A stretch of 54,860 nt of DNA. Origin: an uncultured SAR86 cluster bacterium (GTDB lineage Bacteria > Pseudomonadota > Gammaproteobacteria > Magnimaribacterales > D2472). The notes below the pieces were generated by a model, which was not told where the DNA came from, did no database searches, and saw only the letters and a program-made list of their open reading frames with translations. The translations under genes were made by a program, and so were the position numbers. Positions 42,268 through 51,494 of this stretch are shown here, piece by piece (the first letter of the stretch is position 1; each line of letters starts with the position of its first letter). The stretch is from the NCBI GenBank assembly GCA_902563835.1, contig CACEZB010000008.1:1-54860 (forward strand). The letters run 5' to 3'.

Positions 42268-44616
42268 ATGATAATAAAGAAACTATTAATTAGTTTGGTC
42301 TCAATATTTATAATTTTCATATCATTTGTATTAATAATTTATACATTATTTATATATAAGCCAGAAAATTTAGTTCAATTTATAGATAGATTTCTATTGA
42401 AGGAATACAAAATACAATACCAAGATATATCTTCAGAAAGTCAACTACTGGAACTTAAGTTAGGCTTTAATGATTTACTTTTAGCAAATAATAAAAATAA
42501 AGTAATTATAAAAGTAGAAAGAATATACCTTAGTATTGATTTTTTAAGAACATTGGCTAACAGGTATTTATATTTAAACGCTTTAGATATAGAAGGTATC
42601 TCTTCCAACAATCAAACAAATTCAAAATCAAAGGATAGTTTTAAAATAAGAATAGGCAACTTAAGCATTCAAACAGAGGATTTTATCTTTCAAAGCAATG
42701 AAAGTTATATTAATAACATTAATGGCAACACCTCAATTACAAATTTTAATGGAAAATTAAATAATATTTTTTTTAAGAATCTCAAGATTTTTAATAAACC
42801 TAATTCAACCAAGTTTTTTTATTCAGGAGTTTTTAATTTCAATGAGAAAGTAATTCAAGAAGAGAATCTAATCGATTTAAAAAATTTTTCTGATTATATA
42901 ATTAATCTTAGTCTTGAAAGCGTAGGTTTTTTTGAAAGAGAATCAGGAAATCTTAAAAGTTTAAATAAATATAAATTTATTGATTCCAAGTTAATTACTA
43001 TAGATGATTATCTCATTGATGATATTAATTTAATTTTATTTACAAATATAGATGATAAGTTGACAGGTTTATTTACATCATCTTTACCAGATCAAGATTT
43101 AAAGGGCTCAATATTAATAGAAAATGAAAGAATTGAGCTTCGTTCAATTTTAAGATATGAAATGTCTGAATTATTAGACTATTCAAAATATTTTGCATTA
43201 GATGGATATGAAGAATTCAGATCAAAGATAGAAATCAAGGATGGAAAAGTTTCATTAGACCTAAAAACCAATTCTTTAAATACAAAGATATCGTCAATCT
43301 TAAAAGATCTAGAGAAACCTAAGAATAAGAGATTAGATATTTCTATTAAAATTGATGATCTTTCAAGACCAACTTATTTTATAAAGAGTGATTTTTATAA
43401 CTCATTTTTAGGAGAAAAAAATAATGGTTACTTCGTATTTGGTAATAATGATGAAAATGTAATTAAAAACAATAACTTTGCTGACGGATTCCATATTTTT
43501 TTAAACCTTACTAAATTAGATGTTAATGATTTATTAATCGATGGAATCGATAACGATCCTAATAATTTAAGATCGATTAATTTAAGAATAAAAGATTTTG
43601 ATTTCTTTAAAAATATATATTCAAATCAGAATATAAAAATAGATTTATTAGACAATGGATTTAATATAATTTTTTCAGGGAAGGGCCTTAATGGTTCAAT
43701 AAGAGAAGACAGTACTGGATTTATAAGAGTTGATGTTTATGATACAAAATTTGAGTTCAAAGGTATTGATATTATTGAATCTCAAAGTAACTTTAATGTT
43801 GAAAATGTTAACCTTAGATTCGTTGGCAAAAATATCCAAACATATGATGATACCTTTCAGGATATTGATTTTTATTTATTAAGGAATGAGAAGATAACAA
43901 CTATAGATAATATAAAAATTTCAAGTAGAAATTTGAACATAGGGCCATATAACAATACTGAGAAAGCTTATATTAGCTATAACAATATAACTGATATGTA
44001 TAAGGTAAGAGGGTCTTATGAGTTAAATAACTCAGATTATCCATTTAAGGATTTAATTAATTATGATTTTGAATTTTTATCAACTGATCTAAATATTCAA
44101 TGGGTAAGCTTAGAAAAGTTAAAAAATATAGAAGGAAATATTAAATTCCTTATTAAGGACTTTGAATCTAAGGCAACTCTGCCAGATTCTACTTTTCTAA
44201 AGGCATTAAAGATTTTTAATTTAAATGCAATTATTGAGAATATAAATAATGAAACAAGTATTACCTCACCAAATTTATATATAAATAGAGCAGAAGGTAA
44301 TTTTTATATTGGTAAAAATAGAGCATTGATTAGTGATCCAATTAAGGTTGAAACTTCTGAAGCTAAAATGAGATGGCTTGGGGAAGTGATTAAAGATACA
44401 GATGGGTTATTAAACGAATTAAGTTTAGATCTTGAGATGAGATTAAAAGTTTCTGAAAATATTCCTTGGTATGCTGCAATTTTTGGAGGAATTCCTGCTT
44501 TAGCAGGAGGCTTATTTTTTGAGAATATATTCGACGAAAGACTTGATGATGTTTCAACATTCAAATTTAAATTAAGTGGCTCTATAGAAGAGCCAATAAT
44601 AGAAAGATTAGATTAA
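42268..44616 (+). CDS. yhdP: AsmA-like YhdP family protein, short form
   Basis: One N-terminal membrane helix (about 5-30) anchors a large periplasmic beta-rich domain, followed by a C-terminal AsmA-like region ending near AAIFGGIPALAGGLFFEN and FKFKLSGSIEEPIIE. YhdP helps move phospholipids from inner to outer membrane as a bridge-like protein. In E. coli yhdP lies a few genes after mreBCD; here it follows mreD by two bases. At 782 residues it is much shorter than E. coli YhdP (about 1266), so the bridge would have fewer repeats. The middle is highly diverged. It overlaps the convergent mgtE by nine bases. Confidence 0.75.
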   Translation: MIIKKLLISLVSIFIIFISFVLIIYTLFIYKPENLVQFIDRFLLKEYKIQYQDISSESQLLELKLGFNDLLLANNKNKVIIKVERIYLSIDFLRTLANRYLYLNALDIEGISSNNQTNSKSKDSFKIRIGNLSIQTEDFIFQSNESYINNINGNTSITNFNGKLNNIFFKNLKIFNKPNSTKFFYSGVFNFNEKVIQEENLIDLKNFSDYIINLSLESVGFFERESGNLKSLNKYKFIDSKLITIDDYLIDDINLILFTNIDDKLTGLFTSSLPDQDLKGSILIENERIELRSILRYEMSELLDYSKYFALDGYEEFRSKIEIKDGKVSLDLKTNSLNTKISSILKDLEKPKNKRLDISIKIDDLSRPTYFIKSDFYNSFLGEKNNGYFVFGNNDENVIKNNNFADGFHIFLNLTKLDVNDLLIDGIDNDPNNLRSINLRIKDFDFFKNIYSNQNIKIDLLDNGFNIIFSGKGLNGSIREDSTGFIRVDVYDTKFEFKGIDIIESQSNFNVENVNLRFVGKNIQTYDDTFQDIDFYLLRNEKITTIDNIKISSRNLNIGPYNNTEKAYISYNNITDMYKVRGSYELNNSDYPFKDLINYDFEFLSTDLNIQWVSLEKLKNIEGNIKFLIKDFESKATLPDSTFLKALKIFNLNAIIENINNETSITSPNLYINRAEGNFYIGKNRALISDPIKVETSEAKMRWLGEVIKDTDGLLNELSLDLEMRLKVSENIPWYAAIFGGIPALAGGLFFENIFDERLDDVSTFKFKLSGSIEEPIIERLD

Positions 44617-45972: not shown

Positions 45973-47241
45973 TTACCTAAATCGAGAAGAGGGTATATTA
46001 TTTTTTTTTCTATACTTGGAAATAGTCCTTCGTGCTAAATTTAAACCTTTTTTATTAAGTTCAATCGCTATCTTTCTATCACTTTTAGGCTTTTTTTCAG
46101 AAGCAACAATATCTTTGATTAATTTCATTAATTGTAATGATGAAACATTTTTAGTTTTAGATACCGATGTAATTAAAAGTTCTTTTAAAGGCATTATCCC
46201 TTTCGGGGTATCTATATATTTATGCCTTAGTATTCTTGAGATTGTTGAAGGATGTAATCCTATGGCCTTTGCAATTTCTTTATTGCTCAATGTATTTATT
46301 TTTAAGGGGTTATCTCCAAAAAAATCAATTTGTTTTAAACAGATATATTCTCCCACTTTTTGAACAGTGTCGTTTCTTTTTTTTACAGATGATAGTAGCC
46401 ATTTCGCTTCATTAATTTTTTCTAATAAATCTTTATTCTTTTCTGATTTCAATTCCTTCTTAATATTATTAACAAGCTCATTGTCTATTTTAATTATCGG
46501 AAAGCTTTCATCTATAAAATCCACTTGCATATCTTTATCTTTAATAAGAATTTTTAAATCTGCGGCTATAAATTCAGTTCTTTCAAAATTTAGCCCAGGA
46601 CTTAAATCACAACTCTTTATTTCATCTAGAACATTATTGAAGATTTTTTCTGAATAACCCTCATTTAAGAATGAATCTTTTATTTGTTGTATGTCATCCA
46701 TTTTTTTGTTTGAAAGGATGCTATTTATTAAAAACTTTTTTTTCTTTGATAAATCTCTGTTATTAATTTGTATTTTTATACATTCTTTATAGTCTCTATA
46801 GCCGACTCCGTAGGGCTTAAGTTTATGGATTATATTAATTAGACAATCAGCAATCTCATTTTCTTTAAATAAGAAATTAGAAATCTCTTCAATTTCACTT
46901 ATCTCATAAACTAACTTCCCTGATTCATCAATACAATCTATTATTAATTTTGAAATCTTGATTTCATTTTTGGTAATTTTAAAATCATCTAATTGTTTGA
47001 TGAGATTTTCTCTTAAAGTTGCTTTAGACTCAATGTCAAAATTAAAATCTTGGTCGTAAGATTCCTTATTATCTAAGGCTGTATCTTCTTTTTCTATAAA
47101 TGGATTCTCAATAACATGCTTTTCAATTTTCTTTATGAGCTCAAACCTTGATAGCTGAAGTAAATCAATAGATTTTTTCAAAGAAGGGGTTAATTTTATG
47201 TTTTGTTTTTGTTTGAGTTTTTTAGAAAGAGCTATTGCCAT
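45973..47241 (-). CDS. rpoN: RNA polymerase sigma-54 factor
   Basis: Alternative sigma factor for -24/-12 promoters that needs AAA+ activators. 422 residues, shorter than E. coli (477), through the region II linker. The activator-interacting N-terminus is Leu-rich with a shortened Gln content; the core-binding domain follows; the HTH KEIAKAIGLHPSTISRILR and the C-terminal RpoN box ARRTISKYRKKNNIPSSR are intact, so it should be functional. The activator genes are not in the window. Five bases after lptB, as in most Proteobacteria. Confidence 0.95.
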   Translation of the reverse strand: MAIALSKKLKQKQNIKLTPSLKKSIDLLQLSRFELIKKIEKHVIENPFIEKEDTALDNKESYDQDFNFDIESKATLRENLIKQLDDFKITKNEIKISKLIIDCIDESGKLVYEISEIEEISNFLFKENEIADCLINIIHKLKPYGVGYRDYKECIKIQINNRDLSKKKKFLINSILSNKKMDDIQQIKDSFLNEGYSEKIFNNVLDEIKSCDLSPGLNFERTEFIAADLKILIKDKDMQVDFIDESFPIIKIDNELVNNIKKELKSEKNKDLLEKINEAKWLLSSVKKRNDTVQKVGEYICLKQIDFFGDNPLKINTLSNKEIAKAIGLHPSTISRILRHKYIDTPKGIMPLKELLITSVSKTKNVSSLQLMKLIKDIVASEKKPKSDRKIAIELNKKGLNLARRTISKYRKKNNIPSSRFR

Positions 47242-47246
47242 ATGTT

Positions 47247-47960
47247 TTAGCTATACATTTCGCCAAGATAAACTTTTTTAACCAGCTCATTATTAATTAA
47301 TTCTTCTTTAACTCCTTGGGCTATTATTTGACCATTATTAATTATTGCTGCTTGGTCACATATTTCTAAGGTTTCTCTTACATTATGATCTGTAATTAGT
47401 ATTCCAATATTATTATTAGATAATTTTTTGAGAACATTTTTAATATCTTCAATAGCAATAGGATCAATTCCTGCAAAAGGCTCATCCAAAAGAATTATTT
47501 TAGGTTCAGCTGCTAAAGTTCTTGCAATTTCTACTTTTCTTCTTTGGCCTCCTGACAACTGTCTTCCTTTTAGATCACATATCTCAGATAAATTAAACTC
47601 ATTTATTGATTTATCAATAAAATTTTTAATATCTAGCTCATTGTCGAAAGATATCTCAGCCAGCCCTAAAAGATTTTCATATACAGAAAGGTTTTGAAAA
47701 ATAGATGGTTCTTGAGGGAGATATTTAATTCCTAATTTAGACCTTTTATGCATGGGTAGCTTTGAAATATCTTGGTTTAAGAAATTAATCTCACCACTTT
47801 CACAGCCTATCAAACCAGCAATTATATAAAAAGTTGTTGTTTTCCCCGCACCATTAGGTCCAAGCAGTCCATATATATGTCCAGAATCAACTCTAATATC
47901 AATTTCGTTAAGGATGGTTTTATCCTTTATTGATTTCGACATTTTTTTTATTTCTAGCAC
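47247..47960 (-). CDS. lptB: LPS export ABC transporter ATP-binding protein LptB
   Basis: Powers extraction of LPS from the inner membrane with LptFG. 237 residues; Walker A GPNGAGKTTTF, signature LSGGQRRKVEIA, Walker B ILLDEPFAGIDP and the H-loop TDHNVRE are intact. Start codon GTG at 47960 (a later ATG at codon 7 is possible). Six bases after lptA. Confidence 0.95.
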   Translation of the reverse strand: MLEIKKMSKSIKDKTILNEIDIRVDSGHIYGLLGPNGAGKTTTFYIIAGLIGCESGEINFLNQDISKLPMHKRSKLGIKYLPQEPSIFQNLSVYENLLGLAEISFDNELDIKNFIDKSINEFNLSEICDLKGRQLSGGQRRKVEIARTLAAEPKIILLDEPFAGIDPIAIEDIKNVLKKLSNNNIGILITDHNVRETLEICDQAAIINNGQIIAQGVKEELINNELVKKVYLGEMYS

Positions 47961-47966
47961 AGCAAA

Positions 47967-48377
47967 TTACTCAGAAGAAATTTTTCCAGTCCTTGGATTA
48001 AAAATTATTATATTCGAAGAAATAGAAATATTTTCGTATTTTATAGAAGCATCGCCTATAAGATGAATTTTTTCATCATTAAAAAACATTATTTTTTCAG
48101 CTTTTCCATTAAAAGAAGTATTTTTTTTACTTGATTTAATTGTTGATGGTTTTCCCAAAATAGATATCATATCTTTAATATCATCATAAACAGCTGATTC
48201 GGCCCTAATATTTACAAAATCCGAATTAATTTCTACATTATCAAGAAAATTGATTTGATTGTTTTTTTCTAAAAATTCTATTGTGTCTGACTTTATTCTA
48301 ATGTCATTATCAAAACCCGATGATAGTTCTGTTGAAGTACAAGATAGTATAAATAGTAAGAAATATAAATTTTTCAA
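47967..48377 (-). CDS. lptA: LptA-like LPS transport periplasmic protein
   Basis: OstA/LptA domain protein of the LPS bridge. 136 residues, shorter than E. coli (185). After a hydrophobic signal the repeating beta pattern IRIKSDTIEFLEKNNQINF, SAVYDDIKDM, AEKIMFFNDEKIHLIGDA and ITxNPRTGK-like end is typical. The signal ends ILSC (C13), which resembles a lipobox although Leu at -2 is not usual; classical LptA is soluble. The start is TTG, directly after the kdsD stop (TAATTG). lptC, which normally precedes lptA, is missing. Confidence 0.83.
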   Translation of the reverse strand: MKNLYFLLFILSCTSTELSSGFDNDIRIKSDTIEFLEKNNQINFLDNVEINSDFVNIRAESAVYDDIKDMISILGKPSTIKSSKKNTSFNGKAEKIMFFNDEKIHLIGDASIKYENISISSNIIIFNPRTGKISSE

Positions 48378-49343
48378 TTAAAGTATCCTTGCTTCAATTA
48401 AATCATGCATTGAAATTACTCCAACGTATTTATTTTTGTTCATTACTACAAGAGTAAATATTTTATTATTCTCCATTATTTCTGCTGCATCTACTGCTAA
48501 AGCATCTGATTCAATTGTTTTAAAAGTTTTAGTCATCACTTTTTTAATCTGAGTATTTTGAATGTTGACCTTTTTATTAATACATCTTCTTAAGTCGCCA
48601 TCCGTAAATATCCCTACAACTTTAGATTTATCTATTACGAGAGTTATCCCAAGGTTTTTTTTAGTTATCTCTAATAATGCTTTATCAAGTAAGGTGCTTG
48701 GAGTTACTTTTGGAATTGAATTTCCTTTATGCATTAAATCTTCCACCCTAGTAATTAATTTTTTTCCTAATTTTCCAGCTGGATGTGAATGAGCAAAATC
48801 ATTTTTTGTAAAACCTTTTGCCTCTAGAAGTGAGATTGCAAGAGCATCTCCAAAGGCTAATGCATTAGTTGTTGATGATGTTGGGGCTAAATCTAATGGA
48901 CACGCTTCTTTCTTAGAAATAAGTTGAATTTTTATATCAGCAGACTTTGCAATTTTTGATTTATTATTACCTGAAATTGAAACAATTTTCTTTGCATGTC
49001 TCTTGAGTGAAGTAAGAATATTTATTATCTCATCTGTTTCACCTGAATTTGAGATTAATAAAACTATATCCTTTTTATTAATTAAACCCATATCGCCATG
49101 AGCTGCCTCAGTAGGGTGTATAAAAATAGATGGGGTTCCTGTGCTTGAAAGTGTTGCTGAAATTTTTTGTGCGATATGACCAGATTTTCCAACACCCATT
49201 ATTACTAATTTGCCTTTACAAGCTATAACGGCATTGCATAAATCATTAAAAGATTTATCAAGCTGACTCATTAGGCTTTTGATTGAGTCTGACTCAATCT
49301 TAAGAGTCCTTTTTGCAGATGCTATGTAATTAAATTTTTTCAT
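48378..49343 (-). CDS. kdsD: Arabinose-5-phosphate isomerase
   Basis: Converts ribulose-5-phosphate to arabinose-5-phosphate for KDO synthesis. A SIS domain (about 25-170; VGKSGHIAQKISATLSSTGT, HPTEAAHGDMG) is followed by two CBS domains. The ATG at 49343 gives 321 residues and fits the family start; the frame extends ten codons further to a TTG at 49373, which would overlap the promoter box and is less likely. kdsC does not follow. Confidence 0.93.
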   Translation of the reverse strand: MKKFNYIASAKRTLKIESDSIKSLMSQLDKSFNDLCNAVIACKGKLVIMGVGKSGHIAQKISATLSSTGTPSIFIHPTEAAHGDMGLINKKDIVLLISNSGETDEIINILTSLKRHAKKIVSISGNNKSKIAKSADIKIQLISKKEACPLDLAPTSSTTNALAFGDALAISLLEAKGFTKNDFAHSHPAGKLGKKLITRVEDLMHKGNSIPKVTPSTLLDKALLEITKKNLGITLVIDKSKVVGIFTDGDLRRCINKKVNIQNTQIKKVMTKTFKTIESDALAVDAAEIMENNKIFTLVVMNKNKYVGVISMHDLIEARIL

Positions 49344-49389: not shown

Positions 49390-50016
49390 ATGTTGCATTT
49401 ACATAAAAACTATTTCTTTATTTTTTCATTTATATTTTTCTCGATTTTTATAAAATCTGCAGAAGATCCTTATTTATTTATAGATAAAAATGCTCAAAAA
49501 ATGGTTCAAGTACTTACAAATGATTCCGATCTTTTTGAATTAAATAGGACTGTATACGAAGATAAGATAAAAGAAATATTTGAGCCAATGATAGATTTTC
49601 GAAGAGTTGCAGCAAGTGTTATGGGTAAAAAATATTACCTATTGGCTAGCAAAGATCAGAGATCAGAGTTTGTATTAATTTTTAGAGATTCATTATTAGA
49701 TACTTATGCTGAGACTTTGGCACAATGGGGTGATTCAACAATAACAACTATATATCCTAAATCTGAATTAAATTTAGATATTAAAAATCTAGAAGTAAAA
49801 CAAACACTTAATACTGGCAATAGCCAATATCCAATTTCATATAAATTAAGGAAGGGTGATGAAGGTTGGAAAATTGTTAATATTATTATTAATGGAGTCA
49901 ATCTAGGGCTAACTTTTAGAAATCAATTTCAAGCATTAGCAATTTCTTATGATGAGAATATTGAATTAACTCTTAAAAACTGGGTTTCTGATGCAGGAGA
50001 TGCAGGTATTTCCTAA
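49390..50016 (+). CDS. mlaC: Phospholipid transport periplasmic protein MlaC
   Basis: Carries phospholipids across the periplasm in retrograde/anterograde lipid transport. 208 residues with a signal peptide (about 1-23, cleavage near KSA/ED). The MlaC/Ttg2D core shows FEPMIDFRRVAASVMGKKY, FRDSLLDTYAETLAQW and EGWKIVNIIINGVNLG. mlaFED, mlaB and yrbG, which surround mlaC in E. coli, are absent here. No Shine-Dalgarno sequence. Followed directly by ibaG. Confidence 0.92.
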   Translation: MLHLHKNYFFIFSFIFFSIFIKSAEDPYLFIDKNAQKMVQVLTNDSDLFELNRTVYEDKIKEIFEPMIDFRRVAASVMGKKYYLLASKDQRSEFVLIFRDSLLDTYAETLAQWGDSTITTIYPKSELNLDIKNLEVKQTLNTGNSQYPISYKLRKGDEGWKIVNIIINGVNLGLTFRNQFQALAISYDENIELTLKNWVSDAGDAGIS

Positions 50017-50232
50017 ATGGAAGACATAATAAAAAAAATTATAGTAGAGAATATACCTGATGCTATTTGTTTATTTGAAGGTGATTCATGTAATCTAAGG
50101 TTAATTGTAATTTCTAGTATTTTTAACGATATGTCTTTAATTAATCAGCACAAGAAAATAATGAAACTTCTTGAAGGTAAATTCCAGTCTGGTGATTTGC
50201 ATGCACTTAGTTTGGAAACAAGAACAAGTTAA
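50017..50232 (+). CDS. ibaG: BolA-family protein IbaG
   Basis: 71-residue BolA-like domain protein; family members work with monothiol glutaredoxins on Fe-S cluster handling. The final HALSLETRT matches the conserved BolA end H-A-L-x-L. The ATG follows the mlaC stop with no spacing. Position between mlaC and murA is the E. coli arrangement, which distinguishes IbaG (YrbA) from BolA proper. Confidence 0.88.
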   Translation: MEDIIKKIIVENIPDAICLFEGDSCNLRLIVISSIFNDMSLINQHKKIMKLLEGKFQSGDLHALSLETRTS

Positions 50233-50234
50233 AT

Positions 50235-51494
50235 ATGGAAAAATTATTAATCAAAGGTGGCAACTCTCTAAAAGGAAAAATTACTTGTTCTGGAGCAAAA
50301 AATGCTGCATTACCTATGATTGCTTCAACTATATTATGCGACGAGAAAGTTACTCTTAGAAATTTGCCTTACCTTCAAGATATTACAACAATGTTCGAAT
50401 TATTAGGCTCAATGGGAGCTGAAATTTTACTTGATGAAAATATGGATTTTACAATTTCATCATCTAATCTAAAGGATATAGAAGCCAGATACGAATTAGT
50501 AAAAACAATGAGAGCATCCATATTAGTTCTTGGCCCATTGATAGCAAAATATGGTAAAGCAAAGATCGCTTTACCTGGTGGTTGTGCTATAGGGTCTAGG
50601 CCAGTTAATTTTCATCTTGATGCATTAAAAAAAATGGGAGCAAAAATAAAACTAAAAAATGGTTACATCGAAGCAGAGTCTAAAAATTTATATGGAGCTG
50701 ACATACGATTTGATGGGGTTACTGTAACTGGAACTGAGAATTTAATGATGGCTGCTACACTTGCTGATGGTACAACAAAGCTTACAAATGTTGCCAAAGA
50801 ACCAGAAATTATTGATCTGGCTGATATGCTTAATTCAATGGGCGCAAAAATTAAAGGAGCTGGATCAGATGAAATAATTATAGAAGGAGTAACTAACTTA
50901 AAGGGTACTATATTTGATATACCTGCGGACAGAATAGAGGCAGGAACATATTTGGTAGCCGCAACAGTTACTAACGGAGAAATCACTGTCGATGGTATAA
51001 ATCCAGAAAGATTGATGAAAGTTATTAATAAATTAGAAAATACAGGAGCTAAGTTGAGTTATGATAAAACATCTATCTCAATTTCAATGAAAAAAAGCAT
51101 TCCTGAACCTGTTGATATTACTACAGCTCCCTTTCCAGAATTTCCTACAGACATGCAAGCGCAATTCTCTGTTATTAATGCAATTTCTAATGGAACTTCA
51201 AATATTTATGAGACTGTTTTTGAAAATAGATTTATGCATATTCTAGAGTTAAATCGAATGGGTTGTGATATTGAGGTCAAAGGGAATCATGCAAAAATAA
51301 ATGGTGTTAAAAATATTTATGGGGCAGAGGTTATGGCTACAGATTTAAGGGCGTCAGCTAGTCTTATTCTTGCAGGCTTATGCGCAAAAGGAGAAACAGT
51401 TGTGGATAGGATTTATCATATTGATAGAGGGTATGAGCGCATAGAAGAAAAATTAAATTATTTAGGCGCAAATATTGTTAGATTACCAAGTTAA
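50235..51494 (+). CDS. murA: UDP-N-acetylglucosamine 1-carboxyvinyltransferase
   Basis: First committed step of peptidoglycan synthesis: transfers enolpyruvate from PEP to UDP-GlcNAc. 419 residues, as in E. coli. The start GGNSLKGKITCSGAKNAALP is typical; the fosfomycin-sensitive cysteine is C117 in PGGCAIGSRPV. A late RFMHILELNRMG and the end D-R-G-Y-E-R-I-E are family features. Two bases after ibaG. Confidence 0.97.
   Translation: MEKLLIKGGNSLKGKITCSGAKNAALPMIASTILCDEKVTLRNLPYLQDITTMFELLGSMGAEILLDENMDFTISSSNLKDIEARYELVKTMRASILVLGPLIAKYGKAKIALPGGCAIGSRPVNFHLDALKKMGAKIKLKNGYIEAESKNLYGADIRFDGVTVTGTENLMMAATLADGTTKLTNVAKEPEIIDLADMLNSMGAKIKGAGSDEIIIEGVTNLKGTIFDIPADRIEAGTYLVAATVTNGEITVDGINPERLMKVINKLENTGAKLSYDKTSISISMKKSIPEPVDITTAPFPEFPTDMQAQFSVINAISNGTSNIYETVFENRFMHILELNRMGCDIEVKGNHAKINGVKNIYGAEVMATDLRASASLILAGLCAKGETVVDRIYHIDRGYERIEEKLNYLGANIVRLPS

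Follow-up and report, generated by a model that had tools for sequence, protein, structure and literature searches.

A lone lptA gene at the kds-lpt locus of SAR86 bacteria points to a possible lipopolysaccharide bridge without LptC

LptC is regarded as an essential and conserved part of the lipopolysaccharide (LPS) bridge. Escherichia coli nevertheless survives without LptC when residue R212 of LptF is changed to Gly, Ser or Cys and LptA is overexpressed (PMC4986956, PMC9972910). Where LptF meets LptC, residues R223 and Y230 of LptF, together with T42 and T47 of LptC, make up the intermediate LPS site, to which R212 is proximal; in the R212G mutant, the bridge consists of six proteins and LptA is cross-linked to LptF at Y230 (PMC9972910). 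An engineered LptA comprising residues 28-159, from which residues 160-185 have been deleted, is monomeric and partly functional in E. coli (PMC5575297). In the open-access literature, which leaves out most subscription journals, we found no published case of a bridge that lacks LptC in nature.

SAR86 bacteria are among the most abundant bacteria of the surface ocean. The window, by which we mean the whole stretch of DNA analysed, comprises 54,860 nucleotides from an uncultured member of this cluster (contig CACEZB010000008.1, assembly GCA_902563835.1), and its kds-lpt block contains the following features:

48378..49343 (49373 if an upstream TTG is used as start), minus strand: kdsD, arabinose-5-phosphate isomerase with a SIS domain and two CBS domains (Pfam SIS/CBS, TIGR00393)
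47967..48377, minus strand: lptA, 136 aa, the sole gene between kdsD and lptB, predicted short beta-jellyroll with a signal-peptide-like N-terminus (PF03968, structure model)
48315..48377, minus strand: N-terminal stretch of LptA (residues 1-21) with Cys13 and an uncharged run of 13 residues (hydropathy, lipobox survey)
47247..47960, minus strand: lptB, ATPase of the LPS exporter (TIGR04406, 309.6 bits, above the cut-off of 240)
45973..47241, minus strand: rpoN, sigma-54 (Sigma54 AID, CBD and DBD domains), adjoining lptB as in E. coli

The genes kdsD, lptA and lptB are contiguous with nearly no spacing, the TTG start codon of lptA following immediately after the kdsD stop, and rpoN comes next. 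The E. coli K-12 record, read directly, has the order kdsD-kdsC-lptC-lptA-lptB-rpoN. An earlier note on this DNA had given that order as the usual one and had stated that kdsC and lptC are gone from the block, so that kdsD directly adjoins lptA; both statements hold when the open reading frames (ORFs) of the window are set against the K-12 record. The isomerase exceeds the TIGR00393 cut-off of 203.7 with 345 bits and scores 384.3 bits against the KdsD equivalog PRK10892, below the cut-off of 505; it is a KpsF/GutQ-type isomerase for which KdsD is the best name. Divergent from kdsD, at 49390-51494 on the plus strand, lie mlaC (PF05494), a small ORF and a murA-type gene of the EPSP synthase family.

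The product of the gene next upstream of lptB, the position expected for LptA, matches PF03968 with 34 bits, above the cut-off of 20.4. TIGR03002 (LptA) is its best NCBIfam match (E 1.8e-12), although the 47.3 bits obtained lie below the cut-off of 71.7. Of the two LptC models, PF06835 gives 13.8 bits, below its cut-off of 21, and TIGR04409 is unlisted at E values up to 1. An AlphaFold2 model of the protein, made from 42 sequences (mean pLDDT 86.8, pTM 0.73), has the LptA beta-jellyroll fold, which is predicted to begin at about residue 22. Its closest solved structure is E. coli LptA (2r1a_C; Z 18.1, rmsd 1.8, 115 aligned residues), with residues 22-136 of the model superposing on residues 32-153; the next matches, at lower Z, are Pseudomonas LptH, LptC and the N-domain of LptD, which share a common fold. 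The last residue of the window's LptA aligns to residue 153 of the E. coli protein, which runs 32 residues further, and in this structure alignment the C-terminal strand used for head-to-tail LptA oligomers (within E. coli residues 160-185) is absent. Because the protein ends before this stacking strand, and because deletion of residues 160-185 gives a monomer in E. coli, the modelled SAR86 LptA is likely monomeric. It resembles the engineered variant, as described in PMC5575297, in having a jellyroll that stops before the last strand; unlike that variant it is natural, ends already at the equivalent of residue 153 and would have no LptC to bind.

The earlier note had allowed that lptC might lie elsewhere in the genome. 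Run against the assembly from which the window comes (991 kb, 73% complete), the Pfam LptC model PF06835 had no match, and it exceeded its cut-off in none of the 36 genomes of the window's SAR86 family, f1 (G000-G035, the window's included), where the lone match below cut-off, in G006, lies inside that genome's LptA frame. In these same 36 genomes, LptB was found in 34, LptFG in 32, LptA (PF03968) in 33, LptD in 29 and KdsA in 34 (once below cut-off); with the other Lpt genes present in most of them, an assembly gap was rejected as the cause of the missing LptC. The search for LptFG, which the earlier note had proposed for the complete genome, was positive in most relatives and gave no match in the window's own assembly, which is 73% complete. 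In the close relative G032, LptFG lies about 54 kb from lptB, a distance that for the window falls past the contig end, and we accept an assembly gap as the explanation for LptFG in this case.

Among 184 evenly drawn gammaproteobacterial genomes, an LptC match was obtained in 171 (170 of the 181 outside SAR86). Some of these 171 have no more than 1.0-1.2 Mb, so that the loss is not accounted for by a small genome alone. Of the 13 genomes lacking a match, two belong to SAR86 (G000 and G038) and two measure 0.3-0.4 Mb; the remaining nine are other genomes. The control genomes of Thermus composti and Deinobacterium chartae have LptFG and LptA/LptD_N-type matches and no LptC match, and lack of a recognisable LptC is therefore not unique to SAR86. 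At the reach of profile searches, the absence of LptC from family f1 is real.

SAR86 consists of four families, namely Suzuki, CHAB-I-7, Magnimaribacteraceae and RedeBAC7D11, of which Suzuki and CHAB-I-7 are described as sisters (PMC11582366). Family f1 is most likely Suzuki, and from genome sizes and the count of families we infer that f4, f2 and f3 are the remaining three. The kdsD-lptB locus was read in 51 of 60 SAR86 genomes (30 loci in f1, 7 in f2, 8 in f3 and 6 in f4), and in all 51 a single gene lies between kdsD and lptB. The f2 genome G042 is counted here with a bridge gene (L136:863-1577) that is split over two overlapping frames, either a frameshift or an assembly error, the gene being expected to be essential; its ORF was kept in the hydropathy set as the first part. 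The bridge gene is LptA-like in f1 (135-139 aa, 30 loci) and in f4 (123-128 aa, 6 loci). The f2 and f3 bridge proteins resemble that of the window in being encoded by a single gene at the same place, and differ from it in composition. In f3 the protein has 183-238 aa, and its N-terminus bears, in all eight cases, a transmembrane-like run 20-24 residues long; the LptC models PF06835 and TIGR04409 match over cut-off in three and two, respectively, of the three proteins scanned. In f2, PF06835 and PF03968 are both over cut-off in the three proteins scanned (L001, L005 and L009, of 232-243 aa), the two matches overlapping and that to LptC coming first. The L001 protein is matched by TIGR04409 at residues 8-165 and, below cut-off, by TIGR03002 at the overlapping residues 117-237. 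These three f2 proteins are natural LptC/LptA mosaics in a single ORF.

A second set, of 47 loci, was made from the closest named kdsD records (36 named SAR86, nine only proteobacterial or gammaproteobacterial, one WOR-3 bin and one Geobacteraceae bin). Here an LptA-size ORF follows directly after kdsD in 43 of the 45 SAR86-type loci; the remaining two are cut off there by the end of their contigs. From this set, which overlaps the 30 f1 loci, 41 LptAs were aligned with that of the window (alignment A2); left out were two with ambiguous letters (L093, L095), the two at contig ends (L103, L111) and the two that are not SAR86 (L114, L115). In L115, the ORF after kdsD resembles kdsC by eye. Given a single bridge gene at all 51 loci and the LptC-like proteins of f2 and f3, it seems that the two bridge genes became one in the SAR86 order, with f1 and f4 keeping only the LptA kind.

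LptF forms the other side of the LptC junction. We aligned 38 SAR86 LptFs (30 and 8 from two sets of loci), 21 of them from f1, the window's own lptF being absent from its assembly, with 71 other gammaproteobacterial LptFs; this outgroup consists of E. coli K-12 and 70 of 174 matching non-SAR86 genomes, namely the 30 best and 40 of middle or low rank among the matches listed, with the LptC-negative genomes that were listed. Position 212 is Arg in 61 of the 71 outgroup proteins (the others being Glu, Gln and Leu twice each and Phe, Ser, Ile and Ala once each) and in none of the 38 SAR86 proteins, which have Leu in 18, Ser in 6, Ile in 5, Val in 4, Met in 2, Phe in 2 and Ala in 1. By family, the residues are 12 Leu, 3 Val, 3 Ile, 2 Met and 1 Ala in f1, 6 Ser and 1 Val in f2, 2 Ile, 2 Phe and 1 Leu in f3, and 5 Leu in f4. 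The register of this column is secure because G210 is invariant in all 109 sequences. In 43 LptF columns the outgroup is conserved to 80% or more; of these, 212 and 311 keep the consensus in 0% of the SAR86 proteins and 218, 264 and 330 in 3%; position 212 is thus among the most altered conserved columns and is not alone.

Across the 137 periplasmic LptF columns, the largest rises in hydropathy are at R223 (+7.03), R212 (+6.84) and Y230 (+5.07), and the same three lead with a 31-protein subset of the outgroup (+7.40, +7.14 and +5.25); over the whole of LptF, S298 in the membrane part (+5.64) comes third, between R212 and Y230. R212 had been picked beforehand, and only the ranks of R223 and Y230 are independent of that choice; the chance that two named residues would join R212 at the top is 1 in 9180 if columns are exchangeable, which they are not quite, and other LptF residues named in the same paper were looked at as well (203 ranks sixth, 213 44th and 214 60th). 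Throughout the SAR86 order, R212, R223 and Y230 have thus shifted from basic or aromatic residues to small or hydrophobic ones. The 38 LptFs presumably share one ancestor, so that the substitution may be a single event and not repeated independent evidence. The LptF change fits a merged single-protein bridge throughout the order; it does not by itself prove an LptC-free state.

Starting from what was read directly, that is the gene content, the locus structure, the LptF substitutions of relatives and the predicted LptA fold, we take the absence of LptC from f1, the one-gene loci and the altered LptF junction to be best read as a natural six-protein bridge, LptB2-F-G-A-D-E, in which LptF would hand LPS directly to a short soluble LptA. 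We consider this reading probable, with LptE assumed. In such a machine, LptA would be exported by an ordinary and presumably cleaved signal peptide and would probably act as a short monomer. The cargo, presumably LPS, would pass from the periplasmic jellyroll of LptF straight to LptA through a putative contact between the two, and LptA would deliver it to LptD at the N-terminal jellyroll of the latter. For this the exit of LptF would have been rebuilt at R212, R223 and Y230, the region in which, according to the cited E. coli work, R212G, R212S or R212C frees the cell from LptC. The bridge would still share with the canonical seven-protein gammaproteobacterial system the order kdsD-lptA-lptB-rpoN, LptB, LptFG (in relatives), the LptA jellyroll and LptD; f1 differs from that system in having neither lptC nor kdsC at the locus or in the family genome searches. 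A tandem jellyroll in LptD that would make up the bridge length was also considered and dropped: the LptDs of G000, G016 and G034 show one jellyroll-sized region before the barrel (by eye, one of them Pfam-scanned).

The closest parallel is the E. coli ΔlptC strains carrying lptF R212G, R212S or R212C. As those strains are described, the two cases are alike in lacking LptC, in an altered LptF residue 212 and in LptA as the sole soluble bridge protein, and the residue of the R212S suppressor is the one found in six of the seven f2 LptFs. Unlike the suppressors, the SAR86 state is natural and order-wide, R223 and Y230 are also changed, LptA is shorter, and residue 212 in f1 is Leu, Val, Ile, Met or Ala and not one of Gly, Ser or Cys. 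The parallel is limited on two counts, as Leu, Ile and Val lie outside this published suppressor set and the E. coli bypass needed LptA overexpression, which is not known for SAR86. It is conceivable, and in our judgement just short of an even chance, that lptC and lptA were reduced to a single bridge gene in the order as a whole, that the exit of LptF was rebuilt at R212, R223 and Y230, and that the f1/f4 branch then dropped the membrane-anchored part, thereby repeating the laboratory bypass with a bridge one jellyroll shorter.

The LptF substitutions could instead reflect a different LPS, for example one with fewer phosphates, in which case the loss of LptC would not be their cause. Both R212 and R223 are basic, with R223 in the LPS site and R212 proximal to it in the cited description (PMC9972910), and the two sister families whose bridge protein is still LptC-like have lost Arg212 just as fully. 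In the outgroup, LptC status cannot be told from residue 212: LptC is matched in the genomes of all ten outgroup LptFs lacking Arg212, and the five LptC-negative outgroup genomes whose LptF was read (G094, G108, G134, G137 and G176, some of them fragmented) all have Arg212. On the other side, part of the Kdo pathway is kept, with KdsD in the window and KdsA over cut-off in 57 of 60 SAR86 genomes, and LptG has no shift of that size in its periplasmic domain (maximum +4.62 over 130 columns, against 30 outgroup proteins; +4.94 over the whole protein). We regard this explanation as unlikely, though still to be reckoned with, and it is compatible with the six-protein bridge.

The earlier note had suggested that LptA, anchored in the membrane, covers the roles of both LptA and LptC. 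The wider part of this suggestion is supported by the lack of an LptC elsewhere, the one bridge gene per locus and the matching change in LptF; the means of anchoring is where it falters. One means would be a signal that is not cleaved, its helix staying in the inner membrane so that LptA becomes an anchored substitute for LptC. The f3 gene at the same place, with its transmembrane-like run in eight of eight proteins, lends this some weight, as do two f1 exceptions, L018 and L020, whose best 19-residue hydropathies (2.56 and 2.40) are like that of E. coli LptC, and L038 and L039, with uncharged N-terminal runs of 17. The length of the uncharged run was dropped as an anchoring test in its own right, since E. 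coli LptA (19) and LptC (16) are not separated by it. The hydropathy of the window's LptA (1.29), and the median of the 30 f1 loci (1.74), lie nearer to E. coli LptA (1.91) than to E. coli LptC or the median of the f3 bridge proteins (2.53 each); the median f1 run is 12, and with a jellyroll starting at about residue 22 a membrane helix could be followed by hardly any linker. The N-terminus looks like a cleaved signal peptide, and we find an uncleaved helix improbable.

LptC might also be present and too diverged to be recognised, leaving a normal seven-protein bridge. SAR86 bridge proteins diverge fast, the LptD N-domain of the window's own genome falls below the Pfam cut-off (14 against 20.4 bits), and 11 genomes in 10 families outside SAR86 likewise have no PF06835 match. 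Yet a profile built from the eight LptC-like f3 bridge proteins, when run across the 36 f1 genomes, found the LptA frame of G035 alone, so that neither this profile nor the Pfam LptC model gives a second bridge gene; none of the 30 f1 loci has a gene where lptC usually lies, and LptF is altered on its side of the junction with LptC. A hidden LptC is therefore, in our estimate, rather improbable.

The weakest reading is the lipid anchor proposed in the earlier note. Residue 13 of LptA is indeed a Cys preceded by I-L-S, as that note had read it, and this ILSC fits a relaxed lipobox. Cys13 is present in only 3 of the 30 loci of the genus (L011, which is the window, and L012 and L013, whose lptB genes are 92% and 91% identical to the window's), the other 27 having no Cys at that place. 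Among 42 aligned LptAs, a set that partly overlaps these 30 loci, 21 contain at least one Cys among their first 35 residues, seven have a relaxed lipobox, at positions 12 to 14, and one, which is not the window's protein, has a strict one. As most relatives have no lipobox, a lipid anchor cannot be the general solution, and a lipoprotein held by Cys13 was rejected as most improbable. Of the two findings that the earlier note had named as refuting its idea, a Cys13 that is not conserved in relatives was thus obtained, and an lptC at another place in the genome was not. The lipoprotein, the uncleaved helix and the hidden LptC are each less likely than the six-protein bridge.

If the six-protein bridge exists, the bypass of LptC would be evolutionarily stable and would extend across a whole marine order that has no separate LptC. 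Natural pairs of LptF and LptA would then bear on why LptC exists, on how LptF controls ATP use without it and on the minimal length of a bridge.

As for the other missing gene, kdsC is dispensable in E. coli. The KdsC model TIGR01670 is over its cut-off in one of the 60 genomes of the SAR86 order and below it in four. The hits of G045 (L210, the one over cut-off) and G055 (L211) adjoin genes of NeuB-family synthases, that of G004 (L212) adjoins an ORF that by eye resembles a sugar isomerase, and the other two, in G006 and G017, are the weakest. With KdsA retained as described above, Kdo is presumably still made in SAR86, another phosphatase presumably performing the KdsC step. The KdsC-like phosphatases beside NeuB in G045 and G055 suggest clusters for a nonulosonic-acid surface sugar in some SAR86.

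Some further observations concern other envelope proteins. The LptD of the window's genome (L227:88-2484, G000:C14) has 14 Met within 40 residues (587-626), and the corresponding 40 residues in the LptD of G016 (L228) include 12. PF04453 (LptD) has no match in any of the eight f4 genomes (G038, G041, G044, G047, G050, G053, G056 and G059), all of which have LptFG and LptA-type matches; this reflects either extreme divergence of LptD or a different outer-membrane end. Finally, an ORF of 782 aa at 42268-44616 on the plus strand of the window has no Pfam match at E values up to 10; in NCBIfam, a resemblance to YhdP covers the final 65 residues (E 0.28) and an LrpA model falls on its middle part (E 0.0017), both far below cut-off, and it may encode a shortened envelope protein of the AsmA/YhdP type.
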